DNA of 64,000 nt, taken from the NCBI GenBank assembly GCA_016342415.1, contig JAEIOD010000009.1, positions 62,001 through 126,000 of the forward strand. Reading direction: 5' to 3'. This document shows, piece after piece, positions 52,638 through 62,245 of the stretch; position 1 is the stretch's first letter; each line of letters starts with the position of its first letter. Source of the DNA: Clostridiales bacterium. Lineage in GTDB: Bacteria; Bacillota; Clostridia; Peptostreptococcales; Acidaminobacteraceae. A program made the translations under genes and the position numbers. Under the pieces are notes generated by a model, which did no database searches, had not been told where the DNA came from, and saw only the letters and a program-made list of their open reading frames with translations.

Positions 52638-52646
52638 GAGGGTATG

Positions 52647-54389
52647 ATGGATTTTGTAAATATTAAGATAAATGATGTTGAATTAAAAGTACCAAAGGGT
52701 ACTACCATCTTAGAAGCAGCAAAAGAAATCAATGTTAACATTCCTACTTTATGCCATTTGAATTTAGAAGGCTTTGGTATTGTTAATCAAGTTTCTTCAT
52801 GCCGTGTATGTATGGTAGAAGCGGTTGGACGTCCAACTCTTGTTACTGCTTGTTCAGAGTTGGTTTATGAAGGGTTGGAAGTAAGAACGGATTCATTGAA
52901 AGCTATTAATGCTAGACGTATGGCTGTTGAACTTTTATTGTCTAATCATCCAAAGGATTGTTTGGTCTGTCCTAAAAATCTCGATTGTGATTTACAGAAA
53001 TTAGCAGGAGATCTTGGCGTAAGAGAAATACGTTTCGAAGGTCAAATGATGCAATATGAAAAAGACGAATCAAGTTATTCTATAGTAAAAGATCCAAATA
53101 AGTGTGTTATGTGTCGACGATGTGAAACCATGTGTAATGATGTTCAGACATGTAACATCCTATCAGCGGTAAATCGTGGATTCGATGTGTTTGTCGGACC
53201 TGCCTTCAATATGGATATGGCTGATTCTTCATGTACATTCTGCGGGCAGTGTGTGGCAGTTTGCCCTACAGCAGCTTTGACAGAAGTAAATTATACTAGA
53301 AAAGTTTGGCAATCGCTTGCTGATGAAGATATTCATACAGTTGTACAAGTAGCTCCTGCTATACGTGTGGCTATTGGAGAAGAATTTGGAATGGATCCAG
53401 GAGAAATTTCTACTGGTAAGTTAGCAGCCGCTCTTCGAAAAATGGGATTTGATGGCGTATTTGATACTGATTTTGGTGCTGACCTTACTATAATGGAAGA
53501 AGCTTCTGAGTTGGTTCACAGAATTAAACATGGTGGTACATTACCAATGTTAACATCTTGTTGTCCTGCATGGGTTAAGTTTTTTGAACACCAATTCCCA
53601 GATATGTTGGATATTCCATCAACGTGTAAATCACCACAAATTATGTTTGGTACAATTGCTAAGACGTATTATGCTGAGAAGATGAAACTTGATCCAAAGA
53701 AAATTCAGGTTATTTCAATTATGCCTTGTGTTGCTAAAAAGGCAGAAGCTGCAAGATCTGAATTGACTAAAGACGATAGTAATAATGTTGATGTCGTTAT
53801 TACAACAAGAGAGTTTGCAACTATGTTAAAAGAAGCTGGAATAGATTTTGCAAATCTTGAAGATTCTGATTTTGATCATATGCTTGGTGAGTCTACAGGT
53901 GCATCGATTATATTTGGTGCTACAGGTGGAGTAATTGAAGCAGCGACACGAACTGCATATGAATGGATTACAGGTGAAACACTTGAATCTGTGGATTTCC
54001 ATGCACTTCGAGGAATAGAAGGATTGAGAGAAGCATCTGTTCAAGTAGGAGATATTACTTTAAATATTGGTATTGCACACGGCTTGGGAAATGCTCGAAA
54101 GTTACTTGAAGACATTAGATCAGGCAAATCAAAATTCCACGCAATAGAAATTATGGCTTGCCCTGGTGGTTGCATCGGCGGTGGTGGACAACCATATCAT
54201 CATGGTGATATGAGTATTATTGAAAAACGTCGTGAGGCAATATACAAAGAAGATGCTGGAAAAGTTAAGCGAAAGTCTCATGAGAACCAAGAAGTTCTAA
54301 AACTTTATGAAGAGTATCTTGGTAAACCATATGGCAAAAAAGCTCACGAACTACTTCATACGCATTATGAGCCGAAAGAAAAAATCTAA
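52647..54389 (+). CDS. hydA: [FeFe] hydrogenase catalytic subunit
   Basis: This 580-residue enzyme makes or uses H2. The N-terminus has a [2Fe-2S] domain (SSCRVCMVEA), the His-Cys3 [4Fe-4S] site in HPKDCLVCPKNLDC, and two [4Fe-4S] clusters in CVMCRRCETMC and CTFCGQCVAVCP. The H-cluster motifs are LTSCCPAWVKFFE, MPCVAKKAEA and MACPGGCIGGGGQP, all intact. The C-terminal small-subunit domain is fused. This is the M3 type found in NADH/ferredoxin-coupled enzymes. Two adjacent ATG codons follow GGAGGG, and the second has better spacing. A perfect hairpin terminator ends the operon. HydE, F and G maturases are not in the window. Confidence 0.96.
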   Translation: MDFVNIKINDVELKVPKGTTILEAAKEINVNIPTLCHLNLEGFGIVNQVSSCRVCMVEAVGRPTLVTACSELVYEGLEVRTDSLKAINARRMAVELLLSNHPKDCLVCPKNLDCDLQKLAGDLGVREIRFEGQMMQYEKDESSYSIVKDPNKCVMCRRCETMCNDVQTCNILSAVNRGFDVFVGPAFNMDMADSSCTFCGQCVAVCPTAALTEVNYTRKVWQSLADEDIHTVVQVAPAIRVAIGEEFGMDPGEISTGKLAAALRKMGFDGVFDTDFGADLTIMEEASELVHRIKHGGTLPMLTSCCPAWVKFFEHQFPDMLDIPSTCKSPQIMFGTIAKTYYAEKMKLDPKKIQVISIMPCVAKKAEAARSELTKDDSNNVDVVITTREFATMLKEAGIDFANLEDSDFDHMLGESTGASIIFGATGGVIEAATRTAYEWITGETLESVDFHALRGIEGLREASVQVGDITLNIGIAHGLGNARKLLEDIRSGKSKFHAIEIMACPGGCIGGGGQPYHHGDMSIIEKRREAIYKEDAGKVKRKSHENQEVLKLYEEYLGKPYGKKAHELLHTHYEPKEKI

Positions 54390-54419
54390 TTTCTGTAAAT
54401 ATTATTATAGCAAAATACT

Positions 54420-54453
54420 GAAAAGCAGCTAATCTTAGCTGCTTTTCATTTTA
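54420..54453 (+). terminator. Terminator of the hydrogenase operon
   Basis: GAAAAGCAGCTAA (54420-54432) and TTAGCTGCTTTTC (54435-54447) form a 13-bp perfect stem before an ATTTT tract. Confidence 0.88.
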
Positions 54454-54600
54454 ATAAAATCACATTGATATAATTGCCAAGAAGTTTCTATGATTATATT
54501 GAATATTAAATTTACAACTCAAATCGAAGTAAAAAATATATATATTTACTAAAATTGATTCAGTATATAATTATTATTTCTTTTTCATTCGGTACTTTAA

Positions 54601-54609
54601 TGGTATAAT
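54601..54609 (+). promoter_or_regulatory. Extended -10 promoter of the hybrid kinase operon
   Basis: TGGTATAAT is a TGn extension plus consensus -10 box, 41 bases before the ATG of the hybrid kinase. The -35 region is AT-rich without a clear hexamer. Confidence 0.5.
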
Positions 54610-54649
54610 TTGATAAGTTAAAACAATACTATATGTTGAAAGGAATAAG

Positions 54650-57600
54650 ATGCTAAAAAATATAAAATTAAAGAGTAAAATGATCTATGCATTCTCATTA
54701 ATAATCATATTGATGTTTATTGCTGTTGGATTTAGTTTGTTTGGCCTTAATAAAAACAACCATCAAATATCAAATATGAAAGATATGACTGTTGAAGCTT
54801 CACTTGCTACTGATGTTGAAACTGAATTGCTTAACAGTGTACTTGTCTTCAAAGAGTTCTTCAAAAGTGGTGATACAGCTTTAATCGATGTATTTGAAAC
54901 TCACAAGTCCACTATGCAAAGTAAAATTGAAGAGTTAGAGAATATGAATCATGACACCAATCATCATGAAAGTATTGCTAAGTTACAATCACAAATGACT
55001 GATTACAGCGATGGGTTTAGTACTTTCCAAAGCCTAGATGCAGAAAGATTAGCATATTACACTAACTTAAGCGCTGACGGTGGTCATATAGTTAATTCGC
55101 TGAATACTTTATTGGAAACTTCAATAGTAGAAGGTAATATTAATATTCAGTTAACTTTAAGTGAAGCTACTAACCATTTGCTTGAAGCAAGACTTCATGG
55201 CATGAAGTTTTTTACATTCCATGACCAAGGTGAGTATGACAACTATTATGACAACTATCAACTTTTTAAAGGTTCTGTTAAATCATTAGACGCTTTAAAA
55301 GGCAATCAAAACTACCAATATGAGTATCAGATACTTGCTGAAACCGCGATAACTTATGAAGTCGGTATGAAGGAACTTAATCAGTTGATAGTTTTAATTG
55401 ATAATCAAGTCAAATTAATGGACAGTATTGATAATCAGATTAGTGCAACTGTAGATGAAATAACTACTTCTATTCACCATGAAGAAATCGAACTTGAGAA
55501 GGCAGTTAAGCTACAATCACAGATTTTAATAATTGTTGCACTTATTATGGCTGTCACTTCTATTGTCTTTACCTTTATTATCAGTAGTTGGTTGTTAAAA
55601 ATTGTAATCATACCGATAGAATCATTAAGAAAGACTTTTGATAATATATCAGAAGGTGATGTGGATTTAGAATTTAGACTAAATGACAATTCCAATGATG
55701 AAATTGGTTTGATGTCTAAATCATTTAATCGTTTTATGGTAAATTTAAAAGAATTAATGGATACAATAAATGATCAAAATTGGATTAAAACTGCACAAAA
55801 CGATTTAAATAAAGTTATTAGAGAACCTGAATCTATAGAAGGTTTGAGTGACAATATCTTGAGATATATCAGCGAATACATCAATGCTGAAGTAGGATTG
55901 TTGTATATAAATGATGATGAGGAACTAAAACTGACTGGCACCTATGCCGTTAGTAGTCAAGATGATATTAAACCTACTATGCAATTTGGTGAAGGTATTA
56001 TTGGACAATGTGCATTAGAGAAAAAAGTAAAACGATTAAAAACATCATCACATTATTTAAATATTGAATCGGGATTAGGAAAAGAAGTTGCAACTTCCAT
56101 TGTTATGATCCCTTGTATTTACGAGGATGATGTCAAAGCAATCATAGAGTTAGGTTCTATTCATAAGTTCAATGAAAATGAGTTGGATTTACTTAAAACG
56201 CTTGCAGATGCAATTGCAATATCGATTCATTCTACGTTGGTTCAACTTAAACTTAAAGAGCTTCTTGAAAAAACATTACATCAATCTGAAGAGTTACAGA
56301 TGCAACAAGAAGAATTAAGACAAAGTAACGAAGAACTTGAAGAACAAACACGTGCTTTAAAAGAATCGGAACAAAGATTACAAGCTCAGCAAGAGGAATT
56401 AAGAGTTTCCAATGAAGAATTGGAACAAAGAGCTAAACAACTGGAGTTCCAGAAAAAAGCACTTGATGAAACAAATAAAGAAATAATGATAAAACAACAG
56501 GAAATAATTGAGAAAGCTGACGCCTTGGAATTGGCCAATACTTATAAATCAGAATTCTTGGCTAATATGTCTCATGAATTGAGAACACCTCTTAACAGTA
56601 TTTTAGTTCTTTCGCAATTACTCTCAGAAAGAAATTCTCTTTTACCATTAAATGATAAAGAAAAGGAATTTGCAGAGACAATACATTCCTCAGGTACGGA
56701 TTTACTGGTATTGATTAATGACGTTCTTGACTTATCTAAGGTAGAAGCAGGACATTTGGAAATTATTCATGAACCTTTCGAGTTGGAAAAATTGCTTGTT
56801 GAGAACAATCGAATGTTCAAACCTATGACTGATTCTAAATCAATTGTATTTAAAACAAGTTTAGAGGCAGGATTACCTAAAACCATTAATTCTGATTTTA
56901 TGAGAATACAGCAAATTATTAAAAATTTAATTTCCAATTCTATCAAGTTCACAGAAAATGGTGATGTGACACTTGCAATAAGAAGACCGACGGACTTTGA
57001 AGCAGATACAATCGGTTGTGATAAAAACAAACATATCGCGTTTATTGTTTCTGATACAGGAATCGGCATACCAAAAGATAAACAGCAACTCATATTTGAA
57101 GCGTTCAGACAGTCAGACGGTACTACCAGCAGAAAATATGGCGGAACAGGACTGGGGCTAACAATCTCAAGAGAGTTATCAAATATGTTAGAGGGTAGAA
57201 TCTTGGTAGAAAGTACTATAGGACAAGGTAGTAAGTTCGTGTTCATTGTACCAACCAATAACAGTGAGGAAACAAATTTTATTGAAAAAGAAATTGTGAC
57301 AACTATGGAACCTACTGAACCAATTCTCTTAACTGAAAACATCAAGCCTAAACAAGATAATTTGCTTTTGATTATCGAGGATGATTTAAATTTTGCCAAT
57401 ATACTTAAGAATTTATCTGAGGAAAAGGGATTTGATTGCATAGTTGCCCATAATGGTTTAGATGGTTATCATTTAGCTTTAGAAGAAAGACCGTCTGCAA
57501 TTGTGTTAGACTTGGGATTACCTGATATGGACGGTATGGAGTTGGTGGAAAAGTTAAGTAAAATTGAGTTAACCAAATCTATACCAATTCATATTATTTC

Positions 57601-58546
57601 AGGTATGGACAGTAAACCTGATGATCTGTTACCGAGTAGTGTTATAGGTTTCCTTAAAAAGCCCGTTGATATTAAATCAATCTATAAAACACTTGCAAAA
57701 ATTGAATCTTTATCAGCTAGTGATCAAAGAAGACTTTTAATTGTTGGCGAATGTAACGGGGAGAATTTTGAACAGTTCTCAAGTTTAGGACAAATGAACT
57801 TAGAAAAAACTTCAGATATTTCACATGCAATTTCATTGCTTGAAGCACACAAATACAATTGTATGGTTGTTGACTTTGAATTGGATACGATGACTGGAGA
57901 TCAGTTTATACATGATTATGTTGATCTTATAAAAGATACACCTATTATTATTTATTCGGAGAACGAACTCACGAATGAAAAATTAAATGACATCAATCGA
58001 TATACTGATAGTATTATTTTAAAAAGTCCTAAGTCGGAGGAAAGAATGGTTGATGAAGTTTCGTTGTTCTTACATGGTATGCGTTCTGTCATGACTGAAA
58101 GCACACAAGGAAATACACATTACAAATCGGTCATTATGGATGAATTGTCAGATAAAATAAAGGCCGAAGATCAATTTGAAGGCAAGAAAATATTGGTCGT
58201 TGATGATGACGAAAGAAATGTTTATGCACTTACTAACGTATTGTACAAACACGGCTTTAAAGTTGCTGTTTCTAACGACGGACTTGACAGTATTGAAAAG
58301 GTGAAGTCTTCTGAAAAGTATGATCTTATTTTAATGGATATTATGATGCCTAAAATGGATGGTTATGAGGCTATTAAAAACATAAGAACCCTTCCAAAAG
58401 GAAAAGATATTCCAATTATCGCTTTAACGGCAAAGGCTATGCAAGAGGACAGAATGAAATGTATAAATGCTGGGGCTAATGATTATATGACTAAACCTAT
58501 TGACATTGAAAAATTATTATCAATCATGAAAGTGTGGCTATCTTAA
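54650..58546 (+). CDS. Hybrid sensor histidine kinase with three receiver domains
   Basis: This 1298-residue membrane kinase has two transmembrane segments (about 11-33 and 291-315) around a helical extracellular sensor. HAMP and GAF domains (about 405-530) follow, then a Gln/Glu-rich coiled coil (about 535-640). The kinase core has EFLANMSHELRTPLNSI, the N-box NLISNSIKFTENG and GGTGLGLTISRE. Receiver 1 (DLGLPDMDG) and receiver 3 (KILVVDDDERN, DIMMPKMDG) look active. Receiver 2 lacks the paired acidic residues near its start but keeps the phosphoacceptor-like Asp and the Lys. It leads an operon with CheR, CheB and a diguanylate cyclase. AAAGGAATAAG precedes the ATG. Confidence 0.93.
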   Translation: MLKNIKLKSKMIYAFSLIIILMFIAVGFSLFGLNKNNHQISNMKDMTVEASLATDVETELLNSVLVFKEFFKSGDTALIDVFETHKSTMQSKIEELENMNHDTNHHESIAKLQSQMTDYSDGFSTFQSLDAERLAYYTNLSADGGHIVNSLNTLLETSIVEGNINIQLTLSEATNHLLEARLHGMKFFTFHDQGEYDNYYDNYQLFKGSVKSLDALKGNQNYQYEYQILAETAITYEVGMKELNQLIVLIDNQVKLMDSIDNQISATVDEITTSIHHEEIELEKAVKLQSQILIIVALIMAVTSIVFTFIISSWLLKIVIIPIESLRKTFDNISEGDVDLEFRLNDNSNDEIGLMSKSFNRFMVNLKELMDTINDQNWIKTAQNDLNKVIREPESIEGLSDNILRYISEYINAEVGLLYINDDEELKLTGTYAVSSQDDIKPTMQFGEGIIGQCALEKKVKRLKTSSHYLNIESGLGKEVATSIVMIPCIYEDDVKAIIELGSIHKFNENELDLLKTLADAIAISIHSTLVQLKLKELLEKTLHQSEELQMQQEELRQSNEELEEQTRALKESEQRLQAQQEELRVSNEELEQRAKQLEFQKKALDETNKEIMIKQQEIIEKADALELANTYKSEFLANMSHELRTPLNSILVLSQLLSERNSLLPLNDKEKEFAETIHSSGTDLLVLINDVLDLSKVEAGHLEIIHEPFELEKLLVENNRMFKPMTDSKSIVFKTSLEAGLPKTINSDFMRIQQIIKNLISNSIKFTENGDVTLAIRRPTDFEADTIGCDKNKHIAFIVSDTGIGIPKDKQQLIFEAFRQSDGTTSRKYGGTGLGLTISRELSNMLEGRILVESTIGQGSKFVFIVPTNNSEETNFIEKEIVTTMEPTEPILLTENIKPKQDNLLLIIEDDLNFANILKNLSEEKGFDCIVAHNGLDGYHLALEERPSAIVLDLGLPDMDGMELVEKLSKIELTKSIPIHIISGMDSKPDDLLPSSVIGFLKKPVDIKSIYKTLAKIESLSASDQRRLLIVGECNGENFEQFSSLGQMNLEKTSDISHAISLLEAHKYNCMVVDFELDTMTGDQFIHDYVDLIKDTPIIIYSENELTNEKLNDINRYTDSIILKSPKSEERMVDEVSLFLHGMRSVMTESTQGNTHYKSVIMDELSDKIKAEDQFEGKKILVVDDDERNVYALTNVLYKHGFKVAVSNDGLDSIEKVKSSEKYDLILMDIMMPKMDGYEAIKNIRTLPKGKDIPIIALTAKAMQEDRMKCINAGANDYMTKPIDIEKLLSIMKVWLS

Positions 58547-59376
58547 TGAAAAATGAGGAAATGGATTTAATTGATATAGAAGTACAGTTGTTTCTAGAAG
58601 GTATTTATTTGAGATATGGCTATGATTTTAGAAATTACTCCAGGGCTCATATAAAAAGACGTGTCAATAACCGCCTCGGTCTTTCTGGATTAAACAACTT
58701 ATCAGAATTACAACATTTGGTTTTGACTGATGAAAAATTCTTTCAAAGTATACTAAAAGATTTTTCAATAAATGTGACAGAGATGTTCAGGGATCCGGAA
58801 TTTTTTGCCTTCTTAAGAAAAGACATCATACCTGTCCTAAAATCATATCCGAAGTTAAATATTTGGCATGCCGGATGTTCTACTGGAGAGGAAGTATATT
58901 CAATGGCCATTTTACTTAAAGAGGAAGGCTTATATGATCGGTGTCAAATTTATGCAACGGACTTCAATGCTGATGTTCTTAAAGAGGCCAAAGAAGGCAT
59001 TTATCCTTTAGATGTTGTAAAAGAATATACTTCTAATTTTATCAGAGCAGGCGGTAAAGAATCTTTTTCAGAATATTATGTTGCCAAGTATGACTCTATC
59101 ATCTTAAATCATTCGCTCAAGGCAAATATAATTTTCGCTGAACATAATCTCGTTACAGATCAAGTATTTAATCAGATGCATCTTATTATATGTAGAAATG
59201 TCTTAATTTATTTTAACAATGAGTTACAGTCAAAAGTATTTGATCTGTTTTCAAACAGTTTACGACCTAGAGGATTTATGTGTTTAGGAACTAAAGAATC
59301 TATAAAAGGTAATGATTCATCAGATACCTTTGAAACATATGAGTCAAATTTGAAGGTTTACAGGAAAACAAGGTAG
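58546..59376 (+). CDS. cheR: CheR-family protein-glutamate methyltransferase
   Basis: This 276-residue enzyme methylates glutamate residues of receptors using SAM. The N-terminal CheR domain has NYSRAHIKRRVNNRLG. The catalytic domain has NVTEMFRDPEFF, the SAM motif NIWHAGCSTGEEVYSMA, YATDFNADVLKEA and LIICRNVLIYFNN. It starts in a TAATG overlap with the hybrid kinase gene, so the two are coupled. The likely methylation target is the kinase's coiled coil or a chemoreceptor elsewhere, which is inference. A second ATG at 58561 is possible but has poor spacing. Confidence 0.93.
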   Translation: MKNEEMDLIDIEVQLFLEGIYLRYGYDFRNYSRAHIKRRVNNRLGLSGLNNLSELQHLVLTDEKFFQSILKDFSINVTEMFRDPEFFAFLRKDIIPVLKSYPKLNIWHAGCSTGEEVYSMAILLKEEGLYDRCQIYATDFNADVLKEAKEGIYPLDVVKEYTSNFIRAGGKESFSEYYVAKYDSIILNHSLKANIIFAEHNLVTDQVFNQMHLIICRNVLIYFNNELQSKVFDLFSNSLRPRGFMCLGTKESIKGNDSSDTFETYESNLKVYRKTR

Positions 59377-59382
59377 GAAAAT

Positions 59383-59940
59383 ATGTTTAAAGCAATTGTT
59401 ATAGGCACATCTGCAGGAGGTTTGGTCGCTGCAAAAGAATTATTGACAATTTTAAAGCATCCTTATCCTTTACCAATCATCATTATTCAACATTTAAGCC
59501 CGAGCCATGAAAGTTATTTACCCAAGTTGTTGTCAGAAACTGGACATATGGTGCTTGAAGTTGATGAGAAAACACCAATAGAAAAAGGGAAGGTATATGT
59601 TGCACCTCCAAATTATCATGTCCTTATAGAAAAAGATTATACTTTTTCCTTAACAGTAGAAGCAAGAGAGAGTTATGCAAGACCTTCTATCGATGTGACA
59701 TTTGAAACGGCATCAGACGCATATAAACATCAACTGATCGGTATATTATTGACAGGTGCTAATCATGATGGTGCAAAAGGAATGAAAAGAATATTTGTCA
59801 ATAAGGGTTTCACGATTGTTCAAGATCCGAAAACCGCCCATGCCGAGGAAATGCCTGTTTCTGCATTAAAACTAATCAAACCAGATAAAATATTGTCTAT
59901 AAATGAAATCGGTCATTTTTTAAATGACTTAGTACATTAA
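59383..59940 (+). CDS. cheB: CheB-type protein-glutamate methylesterase without receiver domain
   Basis: This 185-residue protein is the catalytic CheB domain alone. The catalytic triad is visible: Ser in VIGTSAGGLVAA, His in IIIQHLSPSHE and Asp in LTGANHDGAKGM. It removes methyl groups added by CheR. Typical CheB has an N-terminal receiver, which is absent here, so control must come from another partner, perhaps the receiver domains of the hybrid kinase. AAGGTAGGAAAAT precedes the ATG. It lies 6 bases after cheR. Confidence 0.92.
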   Translation: MFKAIVIGTSAGGLVAAKELLTILKHPYPLPIIIIQHLSPSHESYLPKLLSETGHMVLEVDEKTPIEKGKVYVAPPNYHVLIEKDYTFSLTVEARESYARPSIDVTFETASDAYKHQLIGILLTGANHDGAKGMKRIFVNKGFTIVQDPKTAHAEEMPVSALKLIKPDKILSINEIGHFLNDLVH

Positions 59941-59949
59941 GGAGTTAAA

Positions 59950-60933
59950 ATGAGCGACAAAATTAATCTACTCATCGTAGATGACATAAAAGAAAATCAT
60001 CTTGTTATGGAAAGTGTCCTAACAGACAGTGATATAAACATAGTAAAAGCATTATCTGGTGAAGAAGCACTTACTTTATGCATGTCACATTCTTTTGCAG
60101 TTATCTTAATGGATGTTCAAATGCCTGGTATGGATGGATTTGAGACTGCAGATATTTTAAGAAGCATAGATAAAACTAAAAATATTCCGATAATATTTGT
60201 AACAGCTATAAGCAAAGAAAAAAAATCTATCTCTAGAGGGTATGAATTAGGCGCTGTAGATTATTTATTTAAACCAATAGATCCGTTGATATTGAGAAGT
60301 AAAGTAAGATTTTTTATAGAATATCATAAGCAAAAATTAACAATCGTCAAACAAGCAGACGAATTAAAATTCAAAGTAAAAGAATTGACCCAAATTTTGG
60401 AAGAAAAGGACCGTTTGGAAACATTAAGTCTTGAAGATCCTTTAACTAAAGTCTATAACAGAAGAGGTGTAGATAAACTTTACGACATGCATTGGAAGAA
60501 TTGCGGTCGTTATCAGTTGCCGATTTCTGTGTTGATGTTGGATTTAGACAATTTCAAAGGCTACAATGATAATTATGGTCATATTGATGGAGATACTGTT
60601 TTAAAAGAAATTACAAGAGGGATGGTTGCTGGACTCTATAGACCCGAGGACTTTGTTGGAAGAATTGGCGGGGAGGAATTTGTGGCAGTTTTACCGAATA
60701 CTGATAGAGAAGGCGCGGAATTTGTTGCCAAAAGAATCATTGAAGTGATAAATTCTTATGCTATACCTCATTTATATAATGATATTTATGGTATAGTGAC
60801 AGTAAGTTTGGGTATATCTACAATAATTCCTTCTAGCGATATAGACTCTGTAAAATTATTGGAAACAGCTGATAAAGCGTTATACAAGGCAAAAAACACT
60901 GGAAAGAATTGTTTTGAGTATCTTCAAATATAA
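59950..60933 (+). CDS. Response regulator diguanylate cyclase (REC-GGDEF)
   Basis: This 327-residue protein has an N-terminal receiver (LLIVDDIKENH, phosphoacceptor Asp in ILMDVQMPGMDGF, Lys in DYLFKPID), a short coiled coil and a GGDEF domain. The active site is GRIGGEEFVAVL, and the inhibitory I-site RPED stands five residues before it. The kinase upstream would phosphorylate the receiver and raise cyclic di-GMP output. AAGGAGTTAAA precedes the ATG. It is the last of the four signalling genes, but a tiny pilin gene follows only 17 bases later. Confidence 0.94.
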   Translation: MSDKINLLIVDDIKENHLVMESVLTDSDINIVKALSGEEALTLCMSHSFAVILMDVQMPGMDGFETADILRSIDKTKNIPIIFVTAISKEKKSISRGYELGAVDYLFKPIDPLILRSKVRFFIEYHKQKLTIVKQADELKFKVKELTQILEEKDRLETLSLEDPLTKVYNRRGVDKLYDMHWKNCGRYQLPISVLMLDLDNFKGYNDNYGHIDGDTVLKEITRGMVAGLYRPEDFVGRIGGEEFVAVLPNTDREGAEFVAKRIIEVINSYAIPHLYNDIYGIVTVSLGISTIIPSSDIDSVKLLETADKALYKAKNTGKNCFEYLQI

Positions 60934-60950
60934 TTGAAAGTGTGGTAGTT

Positions 60951-61094
60951 ATGGAAAAAGGTGTAGCTTTAGTAGAATATGTATTTATAATAGCTCTAGT
61001 CGTCATGTTAGTCATTGGTGTACTGGCTTTATTTGGTACCGAACTTCGAGATTTTTATCAAAATATTATAGACCAAATTCAAGGACTTCTCTAA
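60951..61094 (+). CDS. Flp-type (type IVb) prepilin, 47 residues
   Basis: This short frame is easily missed. The N-terminus MEKG is followed by VALVEY, so the Gly, then Glu at +5 and Tyr at +6, fit the Flp prepilin cleavage motif (G/XXXXEY). A hydrophobic helix of about 22 residues follows, then a short polar tail ending QIQGLL, as in Flp/Fap pilins. It starts 17 bases after the REC-GGDEF stop and ends in its own terminator, so it is probably the last gene of the signalling operon. The ribosome site (GAAAGTGTGG) is weak. No TadA, TadB, TadC, TadV or CpaF-like genes are in the window. A c-di-GMP-linked adhesion pilus is an inference. Confidence 0.72.
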   Translation: MEKGVALVEYVFIIALVVMLVIGVLALFGTELRDFYQNIIDQIQGLL

Positions 61095-61109
61095 CGAGAA
61101 GTCCTTTTT
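61083..61109 (+). terminator. Terminator of the kinase-CheR-CheB-GGDEF-Flp operon
   Basis: GGACTTCTC (61083-61091) and GAGAAGTCC (61096-61104) form a perfect 9-bp stem with a 4-base loop and five Ts. It overlaps the prepilin stop codon. Confidence 0.88.
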
Positions 61110-61207
61110 CGTAAGAAAGTCTTAAGTTTTGATTAATGCAATTTTAACTTACTCATAAGATTAATTTTATTTTACTAGGATAGAATGATATTGAAAGTGA
61201 GGGATTT

Positions 61208-62245
61208 ATGAAAATTATAAATATGTTATCAAGTGCAGACAAGGTAAAAGGGCAAGGTGTTGGTTCTGCATATCTTGAACAAGTAGCGCTAGTGGAGAAC
61301 GGATTAAAGAATCAATTTGAAGTTAAAATAAATAGTAATAAGAAGGGCGACATCAACCATTATCACACAATTGACTTAAAACACTACATCAAAGCGATTA
61401 CTTCTAAAAAGCCCGTTAATTTAGGCTATGTGCATTTTTTACCAGAAACGATAGATGGGAGTCTCAAACTGCCAAAGCCATTTAGAAAGGTGTTTGATAG
61501 TTACATCATTTCATTTTACAAGAAAATGGATTATTTAGTCACAGTTAATCCATATTTCATAGATCTGTTAGAAGCACATGGTTTAGATAGAAGTAAGATC
61601 AATTACATACCAAATTATGTTTCCAGTGAAAAATTTCATCCACTAGATAAAAATACCATTAGAAAAGGTAAGGAACGGTTTCAAATATATGACCATGACT
61701 TTGTAATCTTAGGAGTAGGACAAGTTCAAACTAGAAAAGGTGTGATGGATTTTATTGATTTAGCTAAAAAAAATCCTGACAAAACATTTGTATGGGCTGG
61801 GGGATTTTCATTTGGAGCAATTACTGATGGTTATCAGGAATTGAAAGAAGTAATCAATAATCCTCCAAATAACGTTAAGTTTACCGGCATCATTGATAGA
61901 AAAGATATGAACCTGATTTATAATATCGCCGATGTTCTCTTTATGCCATCCTATAGCGAGTTATTTCCCATGGCAATACTAGAGGCGATGAGTGTTGGTA
62001 CACCTATTCTTTTAAGAGATTTAGATATCTATCATGCTATACTCGATGGTTATTACTTAAAAGGAGATTGTTTAAACAGTTTTAATACTGTCATCAATCA
62101 ATTATCATACGACAAGAACTATTATGAGGAAGCTACAGAAATGTCTCGTGCAGGCAGTATTTTCTACTCAAAAGATCATGTATTAGAACAGTGGCATGAT
62201 TTGTACAATCAATTGGGTACTGAAAGTCGAGTTTCTAATGAATAA
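61208..62245 (+). CDS. GT4 glycosyltransferase, probably glycolipid synthesis
   Basis: This 345-residue glycosyltransferase has a GT-B fold. The N-terminal VKGQGVGSAYLEQVALV segment and PNYVSSEKFHPL are typical of the diacylglycerol glycosyltransferase branch of GT4. The C-terminal donor-site motif is FMPSYSELFPMAILEAMSVG, with the Glu pair of the EX7E signature. It probably adds the second sugar to glucosyl-diacylglycerol, the lipid anchor of lipoteichoic acid, because another GT4 gene and a flippase-like gene lie next to it. GTGAGGGATTT precedes the ATG. The lipid substrate is inference from family and context. Confidence 0.83.
   Translation: MKIINMLSSADKVKGQGVGSAYLEQVALVENGLKNQFEVKINSNKKGDINHYHTIDLKHYIKAITSKKPVNLGYVHFLPETIDGSLKLPKPFRKVFDSYIISFYKKMDYLVTVNPYFIDLLEAHGLDRSKINYIPNYVSSEKFHPLDKNTIRKGKERFQIYDHDFVILGVGQVQTRKGVMDFIDLAKKNPDKTFVWAGGFSFGAITDGYQELKEVINNPPNNVKFTGIIDRKDMNLIYNIADVLFMPSYSELFPMAILEAMSVGTPILLRDLDIYHAILDGYYLKGDCLNSFNTVINQLSYDKNYYEEATEMSRAGSIFYSKDHVLEQWHDLYNQLGTESRVSNE

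Follow-up and report, generated by a model that had tools for sequence, protein, structure and literature searches.

The locus at 60951-61094 (plus strand) of the window, that is, of the whole 64,000-nucleotide stretch analysed here, raises the question of whether a short pilin gene that directly follows the gene for a diguanylate cyclase is part of a signalling module or serves a pilus system encoded elsewhere. The window comes from contig C83, one of the 83 contigs into which the 5.4-Mb genome is divided. The initial annotation read this gene as an orphan Flp-type prepilin at the end of a c-di-GMP signalling operon and proposed surface attachment as the output of that module. The operon consists of genes for a hybrid sensor histidine kinase (HK), CheR, CheB and a response regulator with GGDEF (RR/GGDEF), and the translation of the last contains a GGEEF active-site motif and an RPED I-site-like motif. 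The stop codon of the RR/GGDEF gene lies 17 nt 5' of the flp start on the same strand (Table 1). The stretch from HK to RR/GGDEF (54650-60933) is a recurring chemosensory-like unit, and no receptor gene was seen within it.

Table 1. Features of the window around the orphan flp gene.
Feature	Position	Strand	Evidence or remark
hydA-type [FeFe]-hydrogenase gene	52644..54389	+	5' anchor of the flp site, conserved across the genus; named from sequence, without family-library search
Terminator-like hairpin	54419..54448	+	after hydA; separates hydrogenase operon from signalling operon
Promoter-like site, TTTTCA-16-TATAAT, extended -10	54582..54609	+	before HK gene; consensus match only
Hybrid sensor histidine kinase, first operon gene	54650..58546	+	4HB-like sensor, HAMP, GAF, HisKA, HATPase, three receiver domains; domain search
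CheR methyltransferase	58534..59376	+	PF01739, 4e-43
CheB methylesterase domain	59383..59940	+	PF01339, 7e-49
Response regulator with GGDEF	59950..60933	+	Response_reg 4e-24, GGDEF 9e-43
Orphan flp, Flp-type prepilin, 47 aa	60951..61094	+	predicted cleavage G4/V5; helix throughout; tail FYQNIIDQIQGLL
Intrinsic terminator hairpin	61081..61106	+	overlaps flp stop codon; loop TAAC, then T residues; folding

The ORF encodes the Flp-type prepilin MEKGVALVEYVFIIALVVMLVIGVLALFGTELRDFYQNIIDQIQGLL (translation of the window), in which the cleavage motif G/XXXXEY reads G4/VALVEY behind the leader MEKG and precedes a hydrophobic helix and a short tail, as the initial annotation had described. The GXXXXEY motif, here G4-VALV-E9-Y10, was invariant across 16 aligned Flps. 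When all six frames of the whole window were scanned, this was the sole ORF that combined the motif, a hydrophobic stretch and a short tail, and 40 composition-matched windows from a first-order Markov model yielded 0 such ORFs. The motif scan against this null model and the conservation of the frame in congeners rule out a chance ORF; 60951-61094 is a genuine gene.

The Pfam family Flp_Fap (PF04964) matched the protein with an E-value of 1.3e-4 and 22.2 bits and did not reach its gathering cut-off of 32.2 bits. This threshold reflects the curation of scores for short sequences rather than any biological feature, and the genome's main Flp clears it narrowly, at 34.2-35 bits. A strict annotation pipeline would thus leave the gene unnamed, which lends plausibility to the earlier remark that it is easily lost in automatic gene calling. 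A search of NCBIfam gave no meaningful match. A profile built from relatives matched at an E-value of 4e-18, with the window sequence itself included in the profile, and a sequence search of the PDB returned weak matches only, the top ones being Tad pilins. AlphaFold2 modelled the protein as a single helix over residues 2-46 with a mean pLDDT of 91.9, as is expected for a Tad pilin, yet such a model is not specific to Tad pilins. A candidate GTG start at 60942, which would give the N terminus MVVMEKG, is possible, and the short leaders of the congener orphans fit the ATG equally well.

The terminator proposed behind the gene was confirmed as the hairpin AAGGACTTCTC-TAAC-GAGAAGTCCTT-TTT, with a folding energy of -16.7 kcal/mol and a z-score of -4.96, and the TAA stop codon of flp lies inside its loop. 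We compared the locus within the genus, for which three genomes were used: that of the window (G000) and two congeners (G001 and G002). In G002, an equivalent hairpin again holds the stop codon in its loop, and in G001 a weaker hairpin lies 3' of the stop. The Shine-Dalgarno sequence, read by eye, is AAAGTGTGG in the window as against AAAGAGGTG and GAAAGGGG in the congeners, and thus appears weaker here. No clear promoter of its own was found upstream of the orphan flp in this genome. The promoter-like site before the HK gene is a candidate promoter for the signalling operon together with flp, and the number of promoter-like sites in the region was about that expected by chance. A common origin of the HK promoter region and the region upstream of flp in G002, both of which contain ATGGTATAAT, was rejected, as 155 of 500 shuffles were as good.

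Orthologues of the orphan flp were found at G002:C96:12244-12396 (L138) and G001:C32:7510-7379 (L139), so that in all three genomes the gene sits at one and the same position, on the 3' side of the [FeFe]-hydrogenase locus, and its frame is kept in both relatives. The orphan Flp is 70% and 51% identical to its orthologues, as compared with 88% and 87% for the products of hydA. Between G000 and G002, dN was about 0.21 and dS about 1.04 (dN/dS about 0.2), values that indicate purifying selection on the orphan flp. The gene order in G002:C96 is hydA, flp (54 nt between the two), glycosyltransferase and LPG_synthase_TM, and that in G001:C32 is hydA, flp and a gene resembling a branched-chain aminotransferase. 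In the window, the order is hydA, terminator, HK, CheR, CheB, RR/GGDEF, flp, glycosyltransferase and LPG_synthase_TM. The stretch between hydA and the branched-chain-aminotransferase-like gene is itself variable (window 54389-61208, L138 12189-12563, L139 7287-7644): it holds flp only in G001, flp with glycosyltransferases and LPG_synthase_TM in G002, and additionally the signalling operon in the window.

Of 27 hydA sites read in the rest of the family, outside the genus, not one was followed by an Flp. Across 198 genomes of the order, nearly all true Flp matches lay within a few kilobases of a TadA (coordinates compared by eye), and the genus orphans were the only clear TadA-unlinked Flps. 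A few other matches fall at contig ends, or in genomes where no TadA was detected, and may or may not be linked. In a tree of 39 Flps, the three genus orphans formed one group (96 bootstrap / 37 SH-aLRT), with those of G000 and G002 clustering together; this tree rests on 46 columns and is weakly resolved, and the SH-aLRT value for the orphan group is low. In another genus, a tad locus on G136:C6 includes a second Flp in tandem (L122, about 1994, minus strand) with the orphan-like tail VFGEELGNLYNNI. Such a tail may mark a class of secondary Flps, and in the tree this tandem Flp was not grouped with the genus orphans.

To what extent is the pilin tied to the c-di-GMP operon? The initial interpretation held in part, in that the gene is a real, conserved Flp-type prepilin gene away from its assembly genes. 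The 17-nt adjacency to the cyclase gene and the shared terminator stood, but the pairing with the cyclase is not kept in congeners, since the HK-CheR-CheB-GGDEF operon was present at the flp site in neither of the two. Conversely, no Flp was found behind any of three homologous four-gene operons, all with the same gene order. These are in Desulfosporosinus sp. UBA8487 (L031; CheR 63% and GGDEF protein 61% identical), in an uncultured Clostridia bacterium (L032; CheR 61%, HK gene cut by the contig end) and in G002:C132 (L182; CheR 50% and GGDEF protein 41% identical). Judged from these gene orders, the conserved neighbour of the orphan flp is the 5' hydrogenase and not the cyclase. Most likely, an insertion in this lineage placed the signalling operon between hydA and flp, and the closer relationship of the window operon to that of Desulfosporosinus than to the G002 copy fits such an acquisition. 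Loss of the operon in both congeners is possible instead. Two losses need more events, because the orphans of G000 and G002 group together and these two genomes have the downstream genes in common.

The view that the pilin is a dedicated output of the c-di-GMP module, with the operon coupling signal reception to surface attachment, draws on the close spacing, the common strand, the shared terminator and the want of a clear flp promoter in this genome. Against it, flp is conserved at its site without the module in both congeners, and the module occurs without flp in the three operons described above. In addition, no known Rfam family, c-di-GMP riboswitches included, was found in the window, in the Tad locus region L016 or in the G002 region L138. 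We consider a dedicated output unlikely, and the signalling-to-attachment link first proposed is probably an accident of position.

Slightly less likely is that the orphan flp has become a decaying relic in this genome, without useful expression after the insertion. The weak ribosome-binding site and the missing promoter would fit such decay, but frame, motif and terminator are intact and the G000-G002 dN/dS ratio is low. It would be more surprising still if, in this lineage, the inserted operon had captured the pre-existing stand-alone pilin, with the pilin now serving as a membrane signal that the neighbouring kinase and diguanylate cyclase either receive or send; this would represent a recent joining of a Tad pilin to c-di-GMP signalling in a Clostridia-like bacterium.

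Nor do we expect that the Flp acts as an input, by which a membrane-held pilin would contact the histidine kinase and tune the cyclase; of these possibilities, we give it the least weight. A proposed precedent is Caulobacter PilA, which is reported to contact the kinase PleC with an effect on c-di-GMP (cited in PMC10790692). Similarly, c-di-GMP rises in Bradyrhizobium when most of Tad cluster 2 is lost, and unassembled Flp left in the cell has been proposed as the signal (PMC12918737). The orphan flp does adjoin an operon for a membrane histidine kinase with an RR/GGDEF gene, but the pairing of pilin and kinase is not conserved in congeners, and homologous kinases sit in operons without Flp.

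The machinery that could assemble the orphan Flp is encoded elsewhere in the genome. As had been noted, no assembly genes are nearby: contig C83 gave no match to type II/IV secretion ATPase or prepilin peptidase families. The genome search that had been suggested for tadV, tadA, tadB and tadC found all of them in a complete Tad locus on contig C35, which rules out the absence of tad genes from the genome. This locus encodes the main Flp (57 aa), TadE, two TadG-like proteins, RcpC/CpaB, TadZ, TadA, TadB, TadC and a TadV-type A24 peptidase, along with a DegS/DegU-like pair and a DUF192-like protein (labels assigned by eye). Its TadA is 91% and 88% identical to the TadA proteins of the congeners. 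The Tad contig is unlikely to be contamination (9% estimate), because both congeners have closely similar Tad loci. What makes this flp gene an orphan is its location alone.

No secretin was seen in the C35 Tad locus. Its RcpC/CpaB protein carries a C-terminal LysM domain, and its TadZ is fused to a receiver domain (L016 10374-11384 and 9227-10363); LysM on RcpC/CpaB may bind the cell wall and so replace an outer-membrane complex. Three Tad-type loci occur in G001 (L141, L142 and L143, on C138, C129 and C29), one with a second, divergent Flp, and contig C53 of G000 encodes a further TadA-like ATPase, 46% identical, with no recognised Flp beside it.

A profile search for other Flp copies across the three genomes recovered seven clear Flps, comprising the three orphans, as many main Flps, and one from the second, divergent Tad locus of G001. 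Across the order, many Flp matches lie next to TadA. The orphan is 47% identical to the main Flp of the same genome (C35, L016 13656-13829), with G4, E9, Y10 and G29 in common. Most of the differences between the two fall right behind the cleavage site and in the tail, where the orphan reads GVALVEY and LFGTELRDFYQNI; GVALVEY and LFGTELR of the orphan correspond to GQGMVEY and LLGPAIA in the main Flp. The main Flp is encoded in the tad operon and has a long leader of about 18 residues, whereas the orphan lies outside and its leader is far shorter. The leaders of all three orphans are short (MEKG, MLKNDKG and MNKG), which looks like a shared property of the genus orphan Flps, unlike the long leader of the main Flp.

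Together, these comparisons favour a reading in which the orphan is an accessory or alternative Tad pilin, with processing and assembly supplied in trans by the genome's Tad system, and we put the probability of this reading at roughly 0.7. It is favoured because the cleavage motif is intact and because a TadV-type peptidase and TadA, TadB and TadC are encoded in the genome. The orphan prepilin would be made with its very short leader, MEKG, and then inserted in the membrane, cut after G4 by the TadV-type peptidase of C35 and polymerised as a minor or conditional subunit by TadA, TadB and TadC of the same genome. The genus ancestor would have had a stand-alone flp directly after the hydrogenase operon, and in this genome the HK-CheR-CheB-RR/GGDEF operon would have entered between hydA and flp. 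The flp gene may now receive read-through transcription from the operon, of which it would not be an evolved output. Processing by the type IVa prepilin peptidase, in the service of a type IVa pilus rather than a Tad pilus, is highly improbable: contig C45 does encode that second A24 peptidase with PilB/PilT-type ATPases, but the protein carries the Flp motif GXXXXEY, has Tad pilins as its nearest paralogues, and would be expected to work with Tad ATPases and TadV-type peptidases.

Sinorhizobium, Bradyrhizobium and Bdellovibrio already provide examples of Flp genes that lie outside tad loci; the details particular to the present case are the genus-conserved position and the short leader. In S. 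meliloti, smc02446 lies outside the tad loci, and its product has been suggested to be incorporated into pili (PMC10934763). Like the orphan, SMc02446 is a short Flp pilin with the Flp motif and a paralogue of the main pilin, and its gene stands apart from the tad cluster (PMC10934763). It differs, in a comparison made by description, in belonging to an alphaproteobacterium and in being co-transcribed with a transmembrane protein of unknown function, with no signalling operon. Bdellovibrio bacteriovorus also has Flp genes outside the TAD operon in a genome with a TAD locus: flp3 and flp4 are not Tad-associated, and flp4 is expressed and needed for predation (PMC5430801). That organism is a predatory diderm with other genomic neighbours and no TadV. 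In Bradyrhizobium, five flp homologues lie outside the canonical clusters (PMC12918737). PilA of Caulobacter crescentus (PDB 8u1k, 8u2b) is likewise a Tad pilin, with weak similarity to the window protein (phmmer E-value 0.13), itself modelled as one helix, but PilA is a main pilin, and its Tad system is that of a diderm.

The present locus adds a genus-conserved Flp gene outside tad loci, in a Clostridia-like lineage, to the alphaproteobacterial and Bdellovibrio cases. It also illustrates that a functional story drawn from adjacency alone, here a cyclase beside a pilin, can fail once relatives are read. If the orphan Flp is a true conditional subunit, subunit exchange in a small monoderm-type Tad pilus would become testable.
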